Of a stretch of 34,627 nt of DNA, positions 15,526 through 25,393 are shown in pieces (position 1 is the first letter of the stretch; each line of letters starts with the position of its first letter). The notes beneath the pieces were generated by a model. It had not been told where the DNA came from and ran no database searches. It saw only the letters and a program-made list of their open reading frames with translations. This DNA comes from an uncultured delta proteobacterium. GTDB taxonomy: Bacteria; Myxococcota_A; Polyangia; Haliangiales; Haliangiaceae. The translations under genes were made by a program, and so were the position numbers. The DNA lies in contig CAADGB010000261.1 in NCBI GenBank assembly GCA_900696455.1, positions 1 through 34,627 of the forward strand, in the 5' to 3' direction.

Positions 15526-16130
15526 CGAACCTCACCGCCGTCAGCGGCCGGCGCGCGCAGAAGGCGGCGACGCGGGCCGCGGTCAAGGCCGCCGCCCGGC
15601 GGTGCTTCCTCGCGCGCGGCTACGCGGCGACGGCGATCGCCGACATCGCCGCCGCCGCCGGGGTCGCCCACGGCACCTTCTACGTCCACTTCGCCGGCAA
15701 GGAGGCGGTGCTCGACGAGCTGCTCGCGGACTTCAACGCCGCCTTCGCCGAGCGCCTGGCGCCGGCGCTGGCGCGGGCGGCGCGGGCGCCGGTCGGCGAG
15801 CTGGTGGCGGCGGCCGCCGACGCCTTCCTCGATCACTGGCGGGCGCACCGCGACTTCATCGCCTGCTACGCCGAGCGCGCGGCCGGCGGCCTCGCGCCCA
15901 CCACCCTGCGCGACGGGCTCAACCCGCCCATGGCCCACCTCCTGACCGCCGCCCTGCGCACCGCCGGCGTCGCCGACGCCGAGCTGGCCACCCACGCCCT
16001 GCTCGCGCTGTGGCTGCGGGTCGGCATGCAGTTCTTGTTTCACGGCGGCGTCACCCGCGCCGCCGCGCGCCGGACCCTGGTCGCGATGACCGTGGGCGCG
16101 GTCGACGCCGTCCGAGGAGCCCCCCGATGA
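15519..16130 (+). CDS. TetR/AcrR family transcriptional regulator of the rSAM operon
   Basis: This 203-residue regulator has the TetR helix-turn-helix at about residues 15-66, with AARRCFLARGYAATAIADIAAAAGVAHGTFYVHFAGKEAVLDELL; FYVHFAGKE is the diagnostic end of the DNA-binding domain. The C-terminal helices form the effector domain and contain two Trp and several His that could line a pocket. ATG 15519 follows the TATCAC hexamer by seven bases, so the message may be leaderless. It heads an operon: its stop overlaps the radical SAM start as ATGA. Cotranscription with its targets plus a palindrome over its own start suggests autorepression of the whole unit. The ligand is unknown. Confidence 0.92.
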   Translation: MSANLTAVSGRRAQKAATRAAVKAAARRCFLARGYAATAIADIAAAAGVAHGTFYVHFAGKEAVLDELLADFNAAFAERLAPALARAARAPVGELVAAAADAFLDHWRAHRDFIACYAERAAGGLAPTTLRDGLNPPMAHLLTAALRTAGVADAELATHALLALWLRVGMQFLFHGGVTRAAARRTLVAMTVGAVDAVRGAPR

Positions 16131-17359
16131 CCCCGCGGCCCCCGCTCACCGAGGCCTTCGCCCTCTACCGTCCCCGCCCTCGCCATCCCGACTGGGGCGC
16201 GCTCGCCGCCGAGGCCCGCGCCATCGCCGCCGAGGTCGGCCCCGGGCTCGAGCCACCACGCGCCGGCCGCGCCGAGCGCCGCCGGCGCCGACGCGGCCAG
16301 CTCACCGCCCTCCGCAACTACCTGCGCAACCGGCGGCTCGAGCGCCGCGGCCGCCACGACCTGCGGCCGCTCTACTTCATCTGGACGCTCCTGCGGACGT
16401 GCAACTTCGACTGCACCTACTGCGACGATCACCGGGGCGCGAAGTACCCGGCGCTGCCGACCGAGGGCACCCTCGACACCGCCGGGGCGCGGCGCCTGCT
16501 CGAGATCATGCGCACCGGCACGTCGTCGGTCTACTTCGCCGGCGGCGAGCCGACCCTGCGCAAGGACCTGCCGCTGCTCACCCGGGCCGCGCGCGACCTC
16601 GACTACTACCCGATCATCATCAACACCAACGGCAGCACCGTCGACCGGCGGCTCCGCGACCCGGCGTGGCGGACGTGGCTGGCCGACACCGACGTGGTCG
16701 TGGTCAGCCTCGACGGGCTCGAGGTGTCGGCGCTGCGCCAGATGTGGTCCTACAAGCGCGCCCACGAGGTCCTGCGCAACCTGCTGGTGCTGCGCGAGCT
16801 GGCCCAAGTCCAGCGCTTCAAGCTGATGGTCAACTGCGTGATCCAGCCCGGCCAGCTCGACCACGCCCGCGACGTCCTCGACCTCGCCAACGATCTGGGG
16901 ATCTGGTTCTGCCCCGTGCCGGTCAACGTCGGCCCGACCGTCCACGCCGGGCTCGCCGCCGACCCCGCCTACGACGCGCTGGTCGAGCTGATCCTGGCCC
17001 GCAAGCGCGCCGGGTATCGCATCACCGGCTCGCTGCGCATGAACCAGCGCCTCCTGCGCTCGGCGCCGCTCGACTGCCGCAACACGCTCAAGCCCCACGT
17101 CGACGCCGACGGCGCGCTGCTGTGGCCGTGCAAGGCCGCGATCGCGGTGCCGCCGGCGCGCATCGACGTCCTCGACTTCGCCGACGTCGACGCGCTCTAC
17201 GCCCACGCCCGCCGCGCGATCGACCCCGATCGCTTCCAGGACCGCTGCGGCGCCCGCTGCAACTGGGCCCAGAACTACTCCACCGACGCCTACGTCGATG
17301 GCCTGCGCCACCCCACCCGCCTCCTCGCCGACGTCGGCGAGCTGCTGCGGGGGACCTGA
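16127..17359 (+). CDS. Radical SAM protein with SPASM-like C-terminal cluster domain
   Basis: This 410-residue enzyme begins with about 80 basic residues (RRRRRRGQLTALRNYLRNRRLERRGRHDLRPLYFIWTLLR), then the radical SAM motif C-x3-C-x2-C at Cys92, Cys96 and Cys99 (CNFDCTYCD), which holds a [4Fe-4S] cluster that cleaves S-adenosylmethionine. YFAGGEPTLRKDL is the SAM-binding GGE motif, and NTNGS plus VVSLDGL are usual barrel motifs. Four later Cys (317, 335, 374, 378; DCRNTLKPHVDADG, LWPCKA, DRCGARCNW) form a short SPASM/twitch-like site for an auxiliary cluster. The ATG overlaps the TetR stop as ATGA; a membrane protein gene starts one base after its stop. No small precursor peptide gene is visible, so a lipid- or small-molecule-modifying role is as likely as peptide modification. 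Confidence 0.9.
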   Translation: MTPRPPLTEAFALYRPRPRHPDWGALAAEARAIAAEVGPGLEPPRAGRAERRRRRRGQLTALRNYLRNRRLERRGRHDLRPLYFIWTLLRTCNFDCTYCDDHRGAKYPALPTEGTLDTAGARRLLEIMRTGTSSVYFAGGEPTLRKDLPLLTRAARDLDYYPIIINTNGSTVDRRLRDPAWRTWLADTDVVVVSLDGLEVSALRQMWSYKRAHEVLRNLLVLRELAQVQRFKLMVNCVIQPGQLDHARDVLDLANDLGIWFCPVPVNVGPTVHAGLAADPAYDALVELILARKRAGYRITGSLRMNQRLLRSAPLDCRNTLKPHVDADGALLWPCKAAIAVPPARIDVLDFADVDALYAHARRAIDPDRFQDRCGARCNWAQNYSTDAYVDGLRHPTRLLADVGELLRGT

Positions 17360-17360
17360 G

Positions 17361-18182
17361 ATGCGCGCCGTGCGCGCCGTGCGCGCCGTGCGCGCCGCGA
17401 GCCGCGCCGCGGTGACGCGCGTCCCGGCGCTGACCAGCACCAGCGATCGCGCCGTGGCCATCGACCTCGCCGCCACCGCCGCCATCGGGGTCGCCGTGTG
17501 CGCCGTGGCCGACGCGCTGGTGGTCATGAGCGCGCTGGTGCCGCTGGTCGTCGCCCTCCGCTTCGCCCTGTGGTGGCGCCTCCCCGCCGGCGGGCGCGGC
17601 CGGCCCCGGGTCGAGCTGGCGCTGTTCGCGATCTGCACCGTCGTCGGCGCCGCCAACGACTGGAACACCGTCGTCGGCCACGGCGTGTACCGCTACGAGG
17701 TGCCGGCCGACCTGCCGGCGCTGTCGACGATCCCGACCTGGATGCTGCTCTACTGGGGGCTGATCCTGCGCCTCGTGCTCACCCTCGCCCGCTGGCGCCG
17801 CCTCGGCCCGCGGACCCCGCCCCGCGGCGGCGCGGTCCGGCTCCTCGGCCTCCTGGCGCTCGTGCTGGTGACGCGCCAGCTCATCTACCGCCACGCCACC
17901 GATCCCTGGCTGTCGTGGCTGCCGTTCGCCGCCGCGCTCGCCGTCTACCTCGCCGCCTTCCGCCCCGCGCGCGCCGAGCTCCGGCTGATGGCGCTGGCCG
18001 CGGTCGTCGGCCCCCTGGTCGAGGTCGCCTTCATCCAGCTCGGCGGCCTGCACCGCTACCCGCTCGGCTGGCTGGCCGGCGTCCCGGTGTGGATCGCGCT
18101 GTGGTGGGTGCTGGCGGTCGCGATCTGGAGCGAGCTAGCGGCGCACCTGGTGGCGCGCCTGCCCCGGGCCGGCTCCCTCTGA
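17361..18182 (+). CDS. Polytopic membrane protein of unknown function in the rSAM operon
   Basis: This 273-residue protein has about seven to eight hydrophobic spans and conserved-looking polar patches on loops: AANDWNTVVGHGVYRYEVPADLPALSTIPTWMLLYWGLILR and GPLVEVAFIQLGGLHRYPLGWLAGVPVWIALWW. Trp, Tyr, His and Glu near membrane edges suggest an enzyme or carrier for a lipid-like substrate. The pattern vaguely recalls carotenoid-pathway membrane enzymes, but I cannot assign a family. The ATG at 17361 lies one base after the radical SAM stop, so the two are translationally coupled. The first codons come from four tandem 9-base units, giving MRAVRAVRAVRAA, so the exact start and N-terminal length may vary between strains. 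Confidence 0.82.
   Translation: MRAVRAVRAVRAASRAAVTRVPALTSTSDRAVAIDLAATAAIGVAVCAVADALVVMSALVPLVVALRFALWWRLPAGGRGRPRVELALFAICTVVGAANDWNTVVGHGVYRYEVPADLPALSTIPTWMLLYWGLILRLVLTLARWRRLGPRTPPRGGAVRLLGLLALVLVTRQLIYRHATDPWLSWLPFAAALAVYLAAFRPARAELRLMALAAVVGPLVEVAFIQLGGLHRYPLGWLAGVPVWIALWWVLAVAIWSELAAHLVARLPRAGSL
17362..17397 (+). repeat. Tandem 9-bp repeat (TGCGCGCCG) x4 inside a start region
   Basis: Four perfect 9-base units encode the Val-Arg-Ala repeat at the N-terminus of the membrane protein. Unit gain or loss stays in frame and would change only the basic N-terminal tail. Confidence 0.85.
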
Positions 18183-18262
18183 CCGCGCCGCTACCCGATC
18201 GATGCCCTCCGCCGGCGTCCCCGCCCCTGTCGGCCGCGCGCCGCCGGTCGACCCGGGGCTCG

Positions 18263-21200
18263 ATGCCGACCTCCGCGCGCGCGCCGTCCCTCCCGGGTCA
18301 CCTCCTCGTCGTCGCGGCCCTGGCCGCCGCCGCTACCGCCTGCGGGTCCGACGACCCACCTCCGCTCGGCACCGACGAGCAGGAGGTCTGGGTCAACGGC
18401 GACTTCGAAGCCGACTCGATCGGGACCACGCCGCCGTCGGGCTGGTCGATCCAGGCCAACCTCAACCCCGGCATCACCGACACCCGCCCCAGCCCGCAGA
18501 CGCTGGCGAGCCTGAACCTGCAGACCGGCGGCACCCTGATGACGTCGGTGGTCGGCGGCGCGCCCGAGAGCCAGCTCGACCCCGACATCGGCACCAGCGG
18601 CACCCTGCGCTTCCCCAAGTACGGGCAACGCGCCGCGCGCGTCAACTACGGCAGCGCCTCGGCCAAGGGCACCGGCCGCAACGTCAACCGCCTGCGTCAG
18701 ACCATGACGATCGGGCTCGGCGATATCGACCCGACCGACAACAAGGTCCACGTCCGCTTCGCGGTGGCGCCGGTCCTGCAGAACCCCGGCCACACCTACC
18801 ACGAGCAGCCCTACTACTACGTACGGCTCCACAACCTGACCACCGGCCAGACCGTCTACTCCGACTTCAACGCCAGCGGCCAGCCGGGCGTGCCGTGGAA
18901 GAACTTCACCGACCCCTCGGGCCAGCAGGCCCAGTACACCGACTGGCAGATGGTCGACGTCTCGCCCGGCCCCGGCGTGCTGTCGGTCGGTGACCAGGTC
19001 GAGCTCACGGTGCTCGCCGCCGGCTGCTCGCAGAGCGGCCACTGGGGGCGGGTCTACGTCGACGCCGTCGGCTCCGGGATCCCCGGCCTCTACGCCTGGG
19101 CCACCGGGCCGCAGTCGGCCAACGCCGGCGCGACGATCGCCTACACGGTCAACTACAAGAACGGGGGCACCACCACCACCACCGGCACGCGCCTCGACTT
19201 CGTCACGCCGCCCAACACGACGTTCCAGGCGGTGAGCCTGGGCGGTGCCTGCACCACGCCGGCGGTCGGCGCCACCGGTACGGTGTCGTGCGACCTCGGC
19301 ACCCTGGCTAACGGCGCCACCGGCTCCCTGCAGCTCACGGTCGGCATCCCCGCCGGCACCGCCGCCGGCACGCTCATCACCAACGGCAACTACGCGATCT
19401 ACGCGACCGGCATCTCGGCCCTGGTCGGCCCCAAGGTCTACACCTCGGTCACCTCCTCGGTGCAGTACGCCGACCTCGGCGTCACGATCGGCGACGGCGT
19501 GCCGGCCCTGGCCTGGGGTCAGCCCACCACCTACACGATCGTCGTCACCAACCACGGCCCGGTCGCCGCCGGGAGCGTGACCGGGAGCGCGCCGCTGCCG
19601 GCGCAGCTCACCGCCGCGACCTGGACCTGCACCGGCAGCGGCGGCGCGACCTGCCCCGCCAGCGGCGCGGGCGGGATCGCGAGCAGCGGCGTGTCGATCC
19701 CGGTCGGCGCCAGCATCACCTACGTCCAGCAAGCGACCGCGATCGCCGGCAGCGGCAGCGGCCAGGTGATCAACACGGTCACCGTCAGTGTGGGCGGCGG
19801 CGGCAGCGACCCCGACACCAACAACAACACCGCCCTCGATACCAACGCCCTCGGCACGCTGCGCCTGCTGTCGGTGACCAAGACCGGATTCACCGCCGGC
19901 GGGACGATCAGCTCGGTGCCGGCGGCCATCGCCTGCGGCCCGGCGTGTGCCGACGACGGCGCCGAGTTCCTCGACGGCGCCCAGGTGGTGCTGACGGCGG
20001 CGCCGGTGACCGGCGCCACCTTCACCGGCTGGGGCGGCGCCTGCAGCGGGACCGCGACCACCTGCACCGTGACCATGACCGGCGCGCAGAGCGTGACCGC
20101 GGCCTTCGTCGGCGCGCCGACGACGGTGACCATCGTCGGCGGCTCCGACCAGGCGACCGCGGTGAGCACGGCCTTCGCCACGCCGCTGTCGGTCGTCGTG
20201 ACCGACGCCGGCGGTCGCCCGGTCCCGGGGGTGGCGGTCGGGCTCACGGCGCCGGCCAGCGGCGCGGCGACCAGCCCGAGCGCCGGCTCGGCCACCACCG
20301 ACAGCAGCGGCGTCGCCAGCCGCGCCGTCAGCGCCAACGCGATCGCCGGCGCCTACGTCGTCACCACCACCGTCGTCGGCCTGGTCGGCACGCCCTCGTT
20401 CACGCTGTCGAACCTCGGGCCGCCGGCGACGATCGCGGTCCACGCCGGCAGCGGCCAGACCGCGACCGTGGCCACCGCCTTCGCCGACGAGCTGGTGGCG
20501 GTGGTCCGCGACGCCGCCGGGCAGCCCCGCCCCGGGGTGCTGGTGACGTTCAGCGCGCCCGGCGCCGGCCCCGGCGCCAGCCTCACCCCGGCCACCGCCG
20601 TCACCGACGCCGCCGGCCTCGCACGCGCCGGCGCCACCGCCGGCACCGTCGCCGGGAGCTTCGCCGTGAGCGCGAGCGTGGTCGGCGTGGCGACCCCGGC
20701 CAGCTTCGCGCTCGTCAGCACTGCCGGCGCGCCGGCCTCGATCCAGCTCGCCGCCGGCAGCGGCCAGGCGAGCGTGGTCACCGATCCGTTCGCCGCCCCG
20801 CTGCGCGTCCTCGTCCTCGACGCGCACGGCAACCCGGTGCCGGCCGCGAGCGTCACCTTCGGCGCGCCGGGCGCCGGACCGTCGGCGCTGATCGCGCCGG
20901 CGGTGGCGACCACCAGCGCCAGCGGCGAGGCCATGGCCAGCGCGATCGCCGGCACCGTCGCCGGCACCTACCAGGTCATCGCCTCGATCGCCGGCGGCGC
21001 CAGCGCCAGCTTCACGCTCACCAACCTGGCCGGCGCCCCCGCGGTCCTCACCGCGACCGGCGGCGGCGGCCAGAGCGCGGTGGTCGGCAGCGCGTTCGCC
21101 GCGCCGCTCGCGGTCGGCGTGGTCGACGCCCACGGCAACCCGGTGCCGGGCGCCAGCGTCACCTTCGCCGCGCCCACCACCGGCGCGACGGCGACCGTGG

Positions 21201-24200
21201 CCGCGACGGTCACCACCGACGCCAGCGGCCTCGCCGCGACCACCGCGGTCGCCGGCAGCGTCAGCGGCGACTTCCTGATCGTGGCCGCCGTCGAGGGCGC
21301 CTCGCCCGTCGCGTTCGCCTTGGCCAACCTGCCGGGCGCGCCGGTGACGATCGCCGTCGTCGGCGGCGACGGCCAGTCGGCGGCCGTCACGACGACCTTC
21401 GCCCAGCCGCTGCGGGTCGTGGTCCGCGACGCCTTCGGCAACCTGGTGCCGGGCGCCGCCGTGACCTTCGCCGCCGCCGCCACCCGCGCCACGCTGGCGC
21501 CGGAGGCCGCGATCACCGGCGGCGACGGCGAGGCCGAGACCTCCGCCACCGCCGGCCCCCTCGCCGGCGCCCACCAGGTCACGGCGTCGCTGTCCGGAGG
21601 CGCCGCGGTCACGTTCACGCTGACCAACCTGCCCGGCGCGCCGGCGACGATCGCGCTGCTCGGCGGCGGCGGGCAGGAGACCGCGATCACCACGGCGTTC
21701 GCGCAGCCGCTCGTGGTCGAGGTCCGCGACGCCCACGACAACCTGATCGCCGACGCCGTCGTGGCCTGGACCGCGCCGTCCGCCGGTCCCCGCGCCGCGG
21801 TCCCGGCCTCGAGCGCCACCGGCGCCGACGGCCGGAGCAGCGTGAGCGCGACCGCCGGCACCGTCGCCGGCGCCTACACCGTGAACGCGACCGCGGGCGC
21901 CGCCACGGTCGCCGTGCCGCTCGTCAACCGACCGGGCGCCGCGGCCCACATCGCCGCGCTCGGCGGCGGCGGGCAGATCACGATCGTGGCCAGCGCGTTC
22001 CCGTCGCCGCTGGTGGCGATCGTCACCGACGCCCACGGCAACCCCGTGCCCGGCGCCACCGTCACCACCAGCGCGCCGCTCGCCGGCGCCTCCGCCACCC
22101 TCGCCCCCGTCCAGCCGGCCACCGACGACGACGGCCGGATCGCCTTCGCCGCCACCGCGGGCACGGTCGCCGGCGGCTACACGGTCGCGGCGCACCTCGG
22201 CGACGCGTCGGCGACGTTCGCGCTGACCAACGCCCCCGACGCGCCGGCCGCGATCGCGGTCGTACCGGGCGGCACGCCGCAGGCGGCCACGGTCCGCGCC
22301 AAGTTCGCGGCGCCGCTCGCGGTCACGGTCGTGGACCGCTTCGGCAACCCCACGCCCGGGATCACCGTGGCGTTCGCCGCGCCGGCCTCCGGCGCCACCG
22401 CCAGCCTCGACGCCGCGACCGCCACCACCGGCGCCGACGGCCAGACCGCGGTCCGGGCCACCGCCGGCGCGTTCGCCGGCGGCTACGCGGTGATGGCCTC
22501 GGTCGCCGGGGTCGCCACGCCGGCGACGTTCGCGCTCACCAACCTCGCCGGGGCCCCGGCGACCATCGCGGTCACCGGCGGCGCGCCCCAGGCCGCCGTG
22601 GTCGACCACGACTTCGCCGACGCCCTCGAGGTGATCGTGCTCGACGCCGACGACAACCCGGTGCCGGGCGCCGTCGTGTCGTTCACGGCGCCGGCGACCG
22701 GCGCCACCGCGATCCTCACCGCGACCGCGGTGACCAGCGATGGCGATGGCCTGGCCGCGATCGGCGCCCGCGCCGGCACCGCCCGCGGCGGCTACGTCGT
22801 CCTGGCGACCGTCGCCGGCGGCGCGGCGCCCGCGACGTTCGCGCTCACCACCCTGCCGGGAGCGCCCGCCGCGATCACCGCCGCGGCGACGTCGACCCCG
22901 CAGGTCACCGAGGTCGCCTCCCCGTTCGCGCGTCCGCTCGTCGCCGAGGTCCGCGACGCCTTCGGCAACCCGGTGCCCGGCGTCACCGTCGACTACGCCG
23001 CGCCCGCCAGCGGCGCGACCGCGACCCTGTCGGCCGCGACCGTGATCACCGACGACGACGGCCGCTGCGCCGTCACCGCCACCGCTGGCGCCGCCGCCGG
23101 CGCCTACGAGGTCCCGGCGTCGATCGCCAGCCTGCCCGAGCCCGCGCGCTTCGCGCTCACCAACGTCCACGGCGCCGCCCACCGGATCGTCGCCGTCGAC
23201 GGCGACGACCAGCGCGCGACCGTGGCCGCGGCCTTCCCCGACCCGCTGGTGGCCCGGGTCGAGGACGCCCACGGGAACCCGGTGACCGGCGCGGTGGTGA
23301 CGTTCGACGCGCCGGGCGCCGGCGCCACCGCGACCCTCACCGACGCGATCGCGACCAGCGACGCGGACGGCCTGGTCTCGGCCGCCGCGGTCGCCGGCAC
23401 CGTGTCCGGCGGGTACGCCGTGACCGCCGCCGCCGCGGGCGCGACGGCCCCCGCCGCCTTCGCGCTCACCAACCTCGCCGACGTGCCCGCGACCGTGGTC
23501 GCGGCGGTCGAGGCCACGCCGCAGAGCGCGCAGGTCCTGCACGGCTTCGCCCACGCCCTGGCCGTCACCGTCACCGATCGCTTCGGCAACGGCGTCCCCG
23601 GCGCGACCGTCGCCTACGCCGCGCCGACGAGCCCGGGCGCGACCCTGGCGGCGCCCACCGCCGTGACCGACGGCGGCGGCCACGCCGCGGTCGCCGCCGT
23701 CGCCGACGCTACCACCGGCGCCTACGTCGTGACCGCCACCGTCTCCGGCGTCGCCCCGGCCGCGTTCGCGCTCACCAACACCGCGGCCGCGCCGGGCGCG
23801 ATCGCCGTCGCCGCCGGCGGAGGCCAGCGGACCCTGGCCACGACCGCCTTCGGCGCGCCGCTCCGCTTCCAGGTCGTCGACCCTCACGGCAACCCGGTGC
23901 CAGCAGCGGTGGTGTCGTTCGCGGTCGCCAGCAGCGGCGTCGCCGCCACCCTGGCGGTCCCGAGCGCGTCCACCGACGCCGCCGGCCAGGTCGCCGTCGC
24001 GGTCACGGCCGGCCCCGCCGTCGGGGACGTCGTGGTCGTCGCCAGCGTCGCCGGCGCCGCGGCCCCCGCCACCGCCACCCTCGCCGTGGCGCCGATCCCC
24101 ACCACGCTCCGCGTCGTGGCGCCGGCCGCGCGAGCGATCGATCGCCCGCTCGAGATCACGCTCGAGGTCGACGCCGACCTCGGGATCCCCGCCGGCGAGG

Positions 24201-25393
24201 TCGAGCTGCTGGTCGACGGCCACGTCGCGGCGGCGGCGACGCTGACCGGTGGCGCCGCGACGGTGGTCCTGACCCTGAACCGGCGCGGCGAGCACGAAGT
24301 GAGCGCGCGCTACCCCGCGCAGGGCTCGCACGGCGCCAGCGCGAGCGCCGCGGTCACGATCGAGCTCCTCGACGACGAAGGGACCCTGTCGGGCGGCGGG
24401 ACCGGCTGCGCCGCGGGCGGCGGTGGGACGCTGCCGCTGGCCCTGGGCCTCGCCGCCCTGGCCCTGGCCCTCGTCCCGCGCAGGGCCCGCGGCCGCCGCC
24501 ACGCGCCGGCGCTGACCGCGGCCATCGCGATCGCCGCCGGCCTGGCCGGGGCCGCCCACCCCGCCGCCGCCGAGGATCGGGGCGCCCGCGCCATCGAGCG
24601 CTACGACGCCGCCAGCGCCGACAGCGCCTGGTTCGCGGCCGACTCGCTGTCGTTCGCCGGCGACTGGGACGCGGCGATGGCGATGACGTGGCACCACGCC
24701 CGCCGGCCGCTGGTCAGCTACGACGCCGACGGCATGCGCCGCGAAGTCATCGTGGCCGACGCGGTGGCGTTCCAGGCCGGCGTCAGCCTCACGCTGCGCG
24801 AGCGTCTCCGCCTGACCGGCACCGCGCCGATGACGGTCTACCAGCGCGGCGACGGCGGCACCTACAACGGCATGGAGCTGGTGGGGCCGACCTACGCGTT
24901 CGGCGACGTGCGCGTCGCCGGGGACGTCCGCGTCGTCGGCGACGCCGACGGGCCGCTGCGGCTCGCGGCCGGCCTCGCCCTCACGCTACCCACCGGCTCG
25001 CGCACCAACTACACCAGCGACGGCACGTTCGCCGCCGAGCCGCGCGCCGCCGTCGCCGGCCGCCTCGCGCGCGTCGAGTACGCCGCCGGCCTCGGGCTGC
25101 GCCTGCGCGAGGCGACCGAGCTCGCCGGCCTGCGCTTCGGCAGCGAGCTGCGCTACGCCGCCGCCGCCGGCGTCCGGCTCGGCGCCGGCCGCGTGCTGCT
25201 CGGGCCCGAGCTGTTCGGGTCGACGGCGCTGCGCCGCGGCAGCGCCAGCGGTCACCCGCTCGAGCTCGGGCTCGGCGCCCACGTCCGCGCCACGCCCTCG
25301 CTCCAGCTCGGGCTCGGCGCCACCCGCGGGCTGGTGAACGCGGTCGGCGCGCCCGAGCAGCGCATCTTCGTCGCGGCCTCCTGGAAGCCCTGA
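18263..25393 (+). CDS. Giant surface lipoprotein: DUF11, InlB-type, 13 Big_1-like repeats, internal MYXO-CTERM-like segment and C-terminal barrel
   Basis: This single frame encodes 2376 residues. In order: lipoprotein signal with Cys27 (ATAC); a beta-rich domain to about 270; two DUF11-type domains (about 273-400 and 403-530, ending DPDTNNNT); an InlB B-type repeat (about 533-617; GATFTGWGGACSG); 13 Ig repeats of about 102 residues (618-1944) with the Big_1-like core D-[AR]-x-G-N-P-V-P-G; one Big_3/5-like Ig domain to about 2040 (GEVELLVDG). Then comes GGTGCAAGGG, a hydrophobic stretch and RRARGRR (about 2044-2079), matching a MYXO-CTERM signal, followed by a second signal-like Ala stretch and a barrel-like region (about 2105-2376) that resembles the N-terminal barrel of myxobacterial OmpA-type porins (AMAMTWHHARRPLVSYD). 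It looks like a fused surface adhesin and outer-membrane protein. I see no alternative start between the halves. Confidence 0.88.
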   Translation: MPTSARAPSLPGHLLVVAALAAAATACGSDDPPPLGTDEQEVWVNGDFEADSIGTTPPSGWSIQANLNPGITDTRPSPQTLASLNLQTGGTLMTSVVGGAPESQLDPDIGTSGTLRFPKYGQRAARVNYGSASAKGTGRNVNRLRQTMTIGLGDIDPTDNKVHVRFAVAPVLQNPGHTYHEQPYYYVRLHNLTTGQTVYSDFNASGQPGVPWKNFTDPSGQQAQYTDWQMVDVSPGPGVLSVGDQVELTVLAAGCSQSGHWGRVYVDAVGSGIPGLYAWATGPQSANAGATIAYTVNYKNGGTTTTTGTRLDFVTPPNTTFQAVSLGGACTTPAVGATGTVSCDLGTLANGATGSLQLTVGIPAGTAAGTLITNGNYAIYATGISALVGPKVYTSVTSSVQYADLGVTIGDGVPALAWGQPTTYTIVVTNHGPVAAGSVTGSAPLPAQLTAATWTCTGSGGATCPASGAGGIASSGVSIPVGASITYVQQATAIAGSGSGQVINTVTVSVGGGGSDPDTNNNTALDTNALGTLRLLSVTKTGFTAGGTISSVPAAIACGPACADDGAEFLDGAQVVLTAAPVTGATFTGWGGACSGTATTCTVTMTGAQSVTAAFVGAPTTVTIVGGSDQATAVSTAFATPLSVVVTDAGGRPVPGVAVGLTAPASGAATSPSAGSATTDSSGVASRAVSANAIAGAYVVTTTVVGLVGTPSFTLSNLGPPATIAVHAGSGQTATVATAFADELVAVVRDAAGQPRPGVLVTFSAPGAGPGASLTPATAVTDAAGLARAGATAGTVAGSFAVSASVVGVATPASFALVSTAGAPASIQLAAGSGQASVVTDPFAAPLRVLVLDAHGNPVPAASVTFGAPGAGPSALIAPAVATTSASGEAMASAIAGTVAGTYQVIASIAGGASASFTLTNLAGAPAVLTATGGGGQSAVVGSAFAAPLAVGVVDAHGNPVPGASVTFAAPTTGATATVAATVTTDASGLAATTAVAGSVSGDFLIVAAVEGASPVAFALANLPGAPVTIAVVGGDGQSAAVTTTFAQPLRVVVRDAFGNLVPGAAVTFAAAATRATLAPEAAITGGDGEAETSATAGPLAGAHQVTASLSGGAAVTFTLTNLPGAPATIALLGGGGQETAITTAFAQPLVVEVRDAHDNLIADAVVAWTAPSAGPRAAVPASSATGADGRSSVSATAGTVAGAYTVNATAGAATVAVPLVNRPGAAAHIAALGGGGQITIVASAFPSPLVAIVTDAHGNPVPGATVTTSAPLAGASATLAPVQPATDDDGRIAFAATAGTVAGGYTVAAHLGDASATFALTNAPDAPAAIAVVPGGTPQAATVRAKFAAPLAVTVVDRFGNPTPGITVAFAAPASGATASLDAATATTGADGQTAVRATAGAFAGGYAVMASVAGVATPATFALTNLAGAPATIAVTGGAPQAAVVDHDFADALEVIVLDADDNPVPGAVVSFTAPATGATAILTATAVTSDGDGLAAIGARAGTARGGYVVLATVAGGAAPATFALTTLPGAPAAITAAATSTPQVTEVASPFARPLVAEVRDAFGNPVPGVTVDYAAPASGATATLSAATVITDDDGRCAVTATAGAAAGAYEVPASIASLPEPARFALTNVHGAAHRIVAVDGDDQRATVAAAFPDPLVARVEDAHGNPVTGAVVTFDAPGAGATATLTDAIATSDADGLVSAAAVAGTVSGGYAVTAAAAGATAPAAFALTNLADVPATVVAAVEATPQSAQVLHGFAHALAVTVTDRFGNGVPGATVAYAAPTSPGATLAAPTAVTDGGGHAAVAAVADATTGAYVVTATVSGVAPAAFALTNTAAAPGAIAVAAGGGQRTLATTAFGAPLRFQVVDPHGNPVPAAVVSFAVASSGVAATLAVPSASTDAAGQVAVAVTAGPAVGDVVVVASVAGAAAPATATLAVAPIPTTLRVVAPAARAIDRPLEITLEVDADLGIPAGEVELLVDGHVAAAATLTGGAATVVLTLNRRGEHEVSARYPAQGSHGASASAAVTIELLDDEGTLSGGGTGCAAGGGGTLPLALGLAALALALVPRRARGRRHAPALTAAIAIAAGLAGAAHPAAAEDRGARAIERYDAASADSAWFAADSLSFAGDWDAAMAMTWHHARRPLVSYDADGMRREVIVADAVAFQAGVSLTLRERLRLTGTAPMTVYQRGDGGTYNGMELVGPTYAFGDVRVAGDVRVVGDADGPLRLAAGLALTLPTGSRTNYTSDGTFAAEPRAAVAGRLARVEYAAGLGLRLREATELAGLRFGSELRYAAAAGVRLGAGRVLLGPELFGSTALRRGSASGHPLELGLGAHVRATPSLQLGLGATRGLVNAVGAPEQRIFVAASWKP
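20114..24094 (+). repeat. 13 tandem about 306-bp Ig-domain coding repeats
   Basis: Thirteen units of roughly 300 bases each encode Big_1-like domains. Each starts with A-P-x-x-I and a GGxGQ-like turn, has a central GACGCCCACGGCAACCC-type core (D-A-H-G-N-P) and ends F-x-L-T-N-x-x-G. Unit sequences have diverged apart from the core, so the array is old and not recently expanded. Confidence 0.85.

Follow-up and report, generated by a model that had tools for sequence, protein, structure and literature searches.

An internal MYXO-CTERM-like segment between adhesin and barrel in one open frame of a myxobacterium, and its recurrence in related genomes

The adhesin-barrel gene and its domains

The window analysed here is the whole contig CAADGB010000261.1 (34,627 nt) of a draft myxobacterial genome (G000). 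An open frame spanning positions 17498-25393 of the plus strand contains the fused gene, which occupies 18263-25393 and comprises 2376 codons plus stop. The ATG at 18263 was taken as the likely real start because a lipoprotein-like signal comes directly after it; from this codon the protein begins with MPTSARAPSLPGHLLVVAALAAAATAC/GSDD, a lipoprotein-type export signal encoded at 18263-18343 (+) (LAAAATAC, lipobox judged by eye). Pfam comparisons place DUF11 (best stretch at about 19472-19834) and Flg_new_2 (about 19964-20110) in the N-terminal domain that follows (18344-20110, +), and the next part is an Ig-like array at 20114-24361 (+, left edge approximate) which consists of 13 Big_1 stretches and then Big_3_5 (24119-24361).

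Three further observations concern this part of the window. With the NCBIfam model TIGR04134 (radical SAM-associated putative lipoprotein) the fused protein scores 56.9 bits, above the cut-off of 39.8; this may be mere domain likeness since the match lies inside the Ig array. A radical SAM gene is located at 15602-17359, upstream of the fused gene with one gene in between. The minus strand carries an open frame of 2168 codons (18191-24697) antisense to the fused gene, most likely as a by-product of the very high GC content at third codon positions.

The C-terminal part (24572-25390, +) encodes an outer-membrane barrel of 273 residues, after which the frame stops at 25393. An AlphaFold2 model based on a 56-row alignment gave a barrel of 12 long strands with high confidence (pLDDT 90.3, pTM 0.85), in agreement with a preliminary description of this DNA that had proposed a barrel of about 270 residues. 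The closest solved structure by fold is FapF (5o65, Z 22.9, rmsd 3.1, 232 aligned residues), followed by a COG4313 channel (4rl8, Z 22.2). FapF and the COG4313 channel (PF13557) thus share the 12-stranded barrel fold with the window protein at Z of about 22-23; sequence identity is 11-13%, however, and the common fold implies no function in amyloid export or transport. The score with PF13557 itself varies with the slice used (22.1 or 21.4 bits) around the gathering score of 22. By sequence the barrel is TraB-like: the TraB-family model NF033763 matches with 33 bits (E 1.7e-8), far under its cut-off of 700 bits. No TSP3 repeats and no OmpA domain follow the barrel, a point absent from the preliminary description. 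Most relatives run on past the barrel into TSP3 repeats and OmpA-like sequence; one homolog (L149) ends at the barrel like the window protein.

The junction between adhesin and barrel

Between the Ig array and the barrel lies an internal MYXO-CTERM-like signal (24392-24499, +) that reads GGGTGCAAGGGG-TLPLALGLAALALALVP-RRARGRR and was aligned with 16 other fused junctions. The MYXO-CTERM signature of Gly/Cys, hydrophobic helix and Arg-rich end is present, with a GGGTGC motif (Cys codon at 24407-24409), a hydrophobic segment TM1 (about 24431-24475) and the Arg cluster RRARGRR (24479-24499). Model TIGR03901 matches over profile positions 1-33 of 34 with 17.3 bits (E 0.0045), below the 20-bit cut-off. 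The segment is not C-terminal, as about 300 residues come after it; its position mid-protein corresponds to residues 2044-2079 given earlier, a numbering that fits a protein of 2376 amino acids.

The Arg cluster is directly followed by a second, internal signal-peptide-like segment (TM2, 24500-24571, +), which reads HAPALTAAIAIAAGLAGAAHPAAA/ED and is the signal-like stretch ending in PAAAED that had been noticed before. Signal peptides were assessed by composition, motif and comparison, and on this basis a signal peptidase I cut is predicted at 24571/24572 (HPAAA/ED), behind an AxA site. This part has low confidence in the AlphaFold2 model, which is silent on cleavage. The frame is open throughout the junction and has no ATG there, as already stated in the preliminary description; from the Cys codon to the AxA site GTG and TTG are absent as well. 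GC content at third codon positions stays at 0.92-0.98 across the junction, unbroken in the fused frame. Promoters and terminators were also sought at the junction; none was found, a result that carries no information given the GC content here.

The order of passenger and barrel recalls type Va autotransporters, in which a passenger also stands ahead of a 12-stranded barrel, and the fold search returned the autotransporter barrels of NalP (Z 18.4) and EspP (Z 17.4). One might thus envisage an uncut surface protein with the barrel anchoring or exporting the joined Ig array. We consider this improbable: the autotransporter barrels rank below FapF and the COG4313 channel, which are not autotransporters, Pfam gave no match of the fused protein to an autotransporter model (E up to 1), and no helix enters the pore in the AlphaFold2 model. 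Moreover, unlike in autotransporters, a MYXO-CTERM-like segment and an internal signal peptide lie between passenger and barrel, and these two hydrophobic segments with their basic loop should halt transfer in the inner membrane. Of the earlier suggestion that two genes have fused into a surface protein with its own barrel anchor, the fusion is supported, the halves being separate elsewhere and fused copies widespread (see below), whereas the autotransporter-like anchor is less likely.

Recurrence of the fused layout and separate-gene relatives

A search with the barrel only, independent of any junction model, gave 150 listed matches in 56 related genomes, of which 52 coincide with in-frame fusions to an upstream MYXO-CTERM; from this proportion among the matches listed we conclude that fusion occurs beyond chance. 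Using a junction model, and counting as fused those loci in which the Cys motif, TM1, Arg cluster, TM2 and barrel are in one frame without a stop, 71 one-frame fusions were found in 35 of the 56 genomes; for loci that are themselves part of alignment A1, among them the window, the E-values of the A1 model are circular. By the same criterion, a survey of 377 genomes of the phylum showed the layout in about 20 groups at family level (counted by eye), and it is also present in the single-contig genome G198. Searching named genomes with alignment A2 gave 29 loci, mostly in Kofleriaceae, Myxococcales or Deltaproteobacteria metagenome genomes, and the same-genus and same-family relatives of the window genome include metagenome genomes of Kofleriaceae type. 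The translated junctions of some 60 loci were inspected. In the fused layout the barrel is usually followed by TSP3 repeats and an OmpA domain. Anaeromyxobacter sp. PSR-1 (L199) was rejected as a candidate fusion, its barrel gene being separate.

The window genome itself harbors a second fusion (L043, G000:C48:25500-36500), an open frame of 2037 amino acids that includes TSP3 repeats and has an OmpA-like end; its junction lacks a start codon from which a signal peptide could begin.

It is very unlikely that two genes were joined here by an error of assembly or sequencing. The window is a single draft consensus, and one frame over at the junction there is a TGA that overlaps a CTG at 24512; against this stand the unbroken third-position GC and the same arrangement in the related genomes, including the single-contig one, and an assembly artefact was rejected on the grounds that the layout recurs in many genomes.

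Measurements on 55 fused loci showed that the layout of the junction is conserved. Cys, hydrophobic segment, basic loop and AxA site are kept in all 55, although AxA motifs are easily met in Ala-rich stretches and the count for this site is weak by itself. The basic loop has a net charge of at least +2 (median +4), and the AxA site lies at a median of 46 amino acids past the Cys and 23 past the Arg cluster. The hydrophobicity of TM2 resembles that of the signal peptides of stand-alone barrels (2.26 vs 2.17, p 0.28) and is lower than that of TM1 (2.26 vs 2.70, p 3e-7). In the alignment the Gly and Cys motif is retained across the fused junctions; some fused loci have a degenerate form of the Cys motif.

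The resemblance of TM2 to an ordinary signal peptide raises the question whether the barrel is a hidden second gene, its translation starting from a weak or non-standard codon within the junction, in which case two proteins would arise with no polyprotein cleavage. The barrel segment indeed has the full set of signal peptide parts, the separate relatives start with ATG or GTG (in L132 with a GTGA overlap), and at least one ATG, GTG or TTG is present in 49 of the 55 junctions. In the other six, to which the window belongs, no such codon is usable. The CTG at 24512 is placed where a start could be, but the signal peptide made from it would lack a basic n-region. A Shine-Dalgarno scan scored junction start codons no better than background windows, a weak test as stand-alone gene starts were missed too. 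More telling is the frame: of 63 pairs in which a MYXO-CTERM end was seen immediately ahead of a barrel, about 58 are in one frame and 5 are split (judged by eye in seven and three cases, respectively). Tested against one third, the binomial p is 2e-22; this value ignores shared ancestry and indicates no more than a large excess. Were the barrel restarted, intervening stops and frameshifts would be harmless and, at 20-30% identity, expected to be common; we therefore conclude that translation runs through the junction. Such continuous translation is well supported, and the hidden second gene is an unlikely explanation. Between the two options named in the preliminary description, an unusual internal start or an internal cleavage, the start is unlikely given the lack of a standard codon in the window copy and a frame kept in relatives, and cleavage is the better supported.

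Separate adjacent genes for the two halves, whose existence elsewhere had been put forward as a point to check, were found at several loci. In L128 (G053) a lectin-domain gene ends with GGSGGCGFGGG...LRQRRG and a stop, followed by a separate barrel-OmpA gene. Among the relatives, this barrel has the highest identity to that of the window (about 33%); it matches TraB with 238 bits and is followed by TSP3 repeats and OmpA, which are also visible in the translation of L129; the MYXO-CTERM model returned no match at the end of the lectin gene, where the tag was judged by eye. At L132 (G039) the MYXO-CTERM-like end is in a different frame from the barrel, and in L126 and L127 a stop and then an ATG separate the halves. 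The fused and split forms carry the same signals. At a further locus (L201, G016:C470) a strong MYXO-CTERM-like end, scoring 28.3 bits with the junction model, immediately precedes the barrel in a different frame; the pair could be truly split, or the frameshift could be an error.

Homologs of the N-terminal half were searched with the first 552 residues. A separate protein of 864 amino acids (L247) is 45% identical to the first 615 residues of the window protein over 591 aligned columns; in this protein and in L248 a stop follows the Arg tail, and their ends match MYXO-CTERM with 14.6 and 22.3 bits, respectively. Homologs ending at the Arg tail, which had been named as a case that would speak against the fusion, thus exist in other families, whereas the N-half homologs of the same genus (G004, G005) and of the same family (G014) are fused. 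In another N-half homolog (L250, G006:C12:126500-135500) masked sequence and a break of the frame occur within TSP3-like repeats, immediately upstream of the fused frame L094; the two probably belong to a single gene disrupted by the assembly.

In a tree of 81 barrels, which was obtained by a quick search and has many weak branches, the window barrel groups with one split and two stand-alone genes (SH-aLRT 99). The fused state requires 11 changes on this tree, at least three of them on strongly supported branches, from which it follows that fusion or fission happened repeatedly. The fusion in the window is probably not the founder of the large fused clades.

Relation to known systems and proposed processing

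The preliminary description held that no described architecture has this order, which is wrong. Guo, Haft and Wall (2025) described MXAN_5598 of Myxococcus xanthus, in the published account an atypical single case, as an adhesin with an internal MYXO-CTERM and a barrel (PMC11980579). Compared by this description, both proteins have a large adhesin region, an internal MYXO-CTERM and a barrel in the same order in one open reading frame, and to the extent of that account the window protein is of the MXAN_5598 type. Unlike the window barrel, that of MXAN_5598 is followed by an OmpA domain, and an internal signal peptide is unmentioned in the published description as far as it was available. MXAN_5598 is expressed, as it is among the outer membrane vesicle proteins listed (PMC4158809). 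Processing of its N-terminal part was proposed in analogy to the MYXO-CTERM of TraA, which is cleaved by MrtX (PMC11980579). With the architecture known from this one published protein, what is new here is the breadth of the layout, the reading of TM2 as an internal signal peptide and a copy without OmpA; in the literature searched, the layout was found published for MXAN_5598 and its phylum-wide breadth was not found.

A second comparison is offered by the outer membrane exchange pair TraA/TraB, in which a MYXO-CTERM surface receptor is encoded beside a barrel protein to which the window barrel is related. The differences are that traA and traB are two genes with an overlap of four bases (PMC3325183) while the window has one frame, that TraB has TSP3 and OmpA, both missing after the window barrel, and that TraA has a variable domain where the adhesin half of the window is an Ig array. 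In M. xanthus TraA and TraB occur in a 1:1 ratio (PMC12045341), which is what a polyprotein would guarantee.

We favor, with a probability of roughly 0.6, an in-frame fusion of genes for a TraA-like adhesin and a TraB-like barrel that yields one precursor, which myxosortase and signal peptidase I would then cleave. The fused gene would be translated into a single polyprotein, of which the N-terminal signal would take the Ig array through Sec. TM1 would then halt in the inner membrane with the Arg cluster in the cytoplasm, where this cluster may double as the n-region of the second, internal signal peptide (TM2) and thereby re-start export. Signal peptidase I would cleave at AAA/ED and free the barrel for insertion into the outer membrane by BAM. 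The Cys of the MYXO-CTERM is expected to be lipidated, with MrtX cleaving after it and the adhesin moving to the cell surface. The products would be the adhesin and its presumed barrel partner in equal numbers (1:1).

The myxosortase step invites the objection that only one cut takes place, either by signal peptidase I, leaving the MYXO-CTERM tail on the adhesin, or by MrtX, leaving TM2 on the barrel. The weak MYXO-CTERM score of the window agrees with this, as does the lack of a clear MrtX in the window's own draft genome (95% complete), where the MrtX model NF040593 matches weakly (E 2.4e-5), probably owing to the incomplete draft. In all six same-genus genomes NF040593 matches strongly, with E of about 1e-35 to 1e-40, though all under the cut-off. 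MrtX-family matches are present in 53 of the 56 genomes, with none of the relatives reaching the NF040593 cut-off. This near-universal occurrence and the maintained Gly and Cys motif argue against a single cut, which we regard as unlikely.

Whether two-cut processing extends to the phylum as a whole, with polyproteins in which a sorting tag and a signal peptide stand back to back, share one Arg cluster and are cut twice to give a fixed 1:1 ratio of adhesin and barrel, is in our estimate an even bet. If so, a layout called rare would be common in the Myxococcota, with about one third of the barrel matches listed in relatives being adhesin-fused, and polyprotein processing would fix the stoichiometry of surface adhesin/barrel pairs in myxobacteria. 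Natural fusions would then link unknown barrels to their adhesins and would provide a direct test of myxosortase on an internal tag. Annotation that expects a C-terminal tag would misplace such proteins.

Internal tags are not rare in the genus of the window genome: an internal MYXO-CTERM in a fused frame accounts for at least 4 of the 45 TIGR03901 matches in one genome (G003) and at least 3 of 31 in another (G006).
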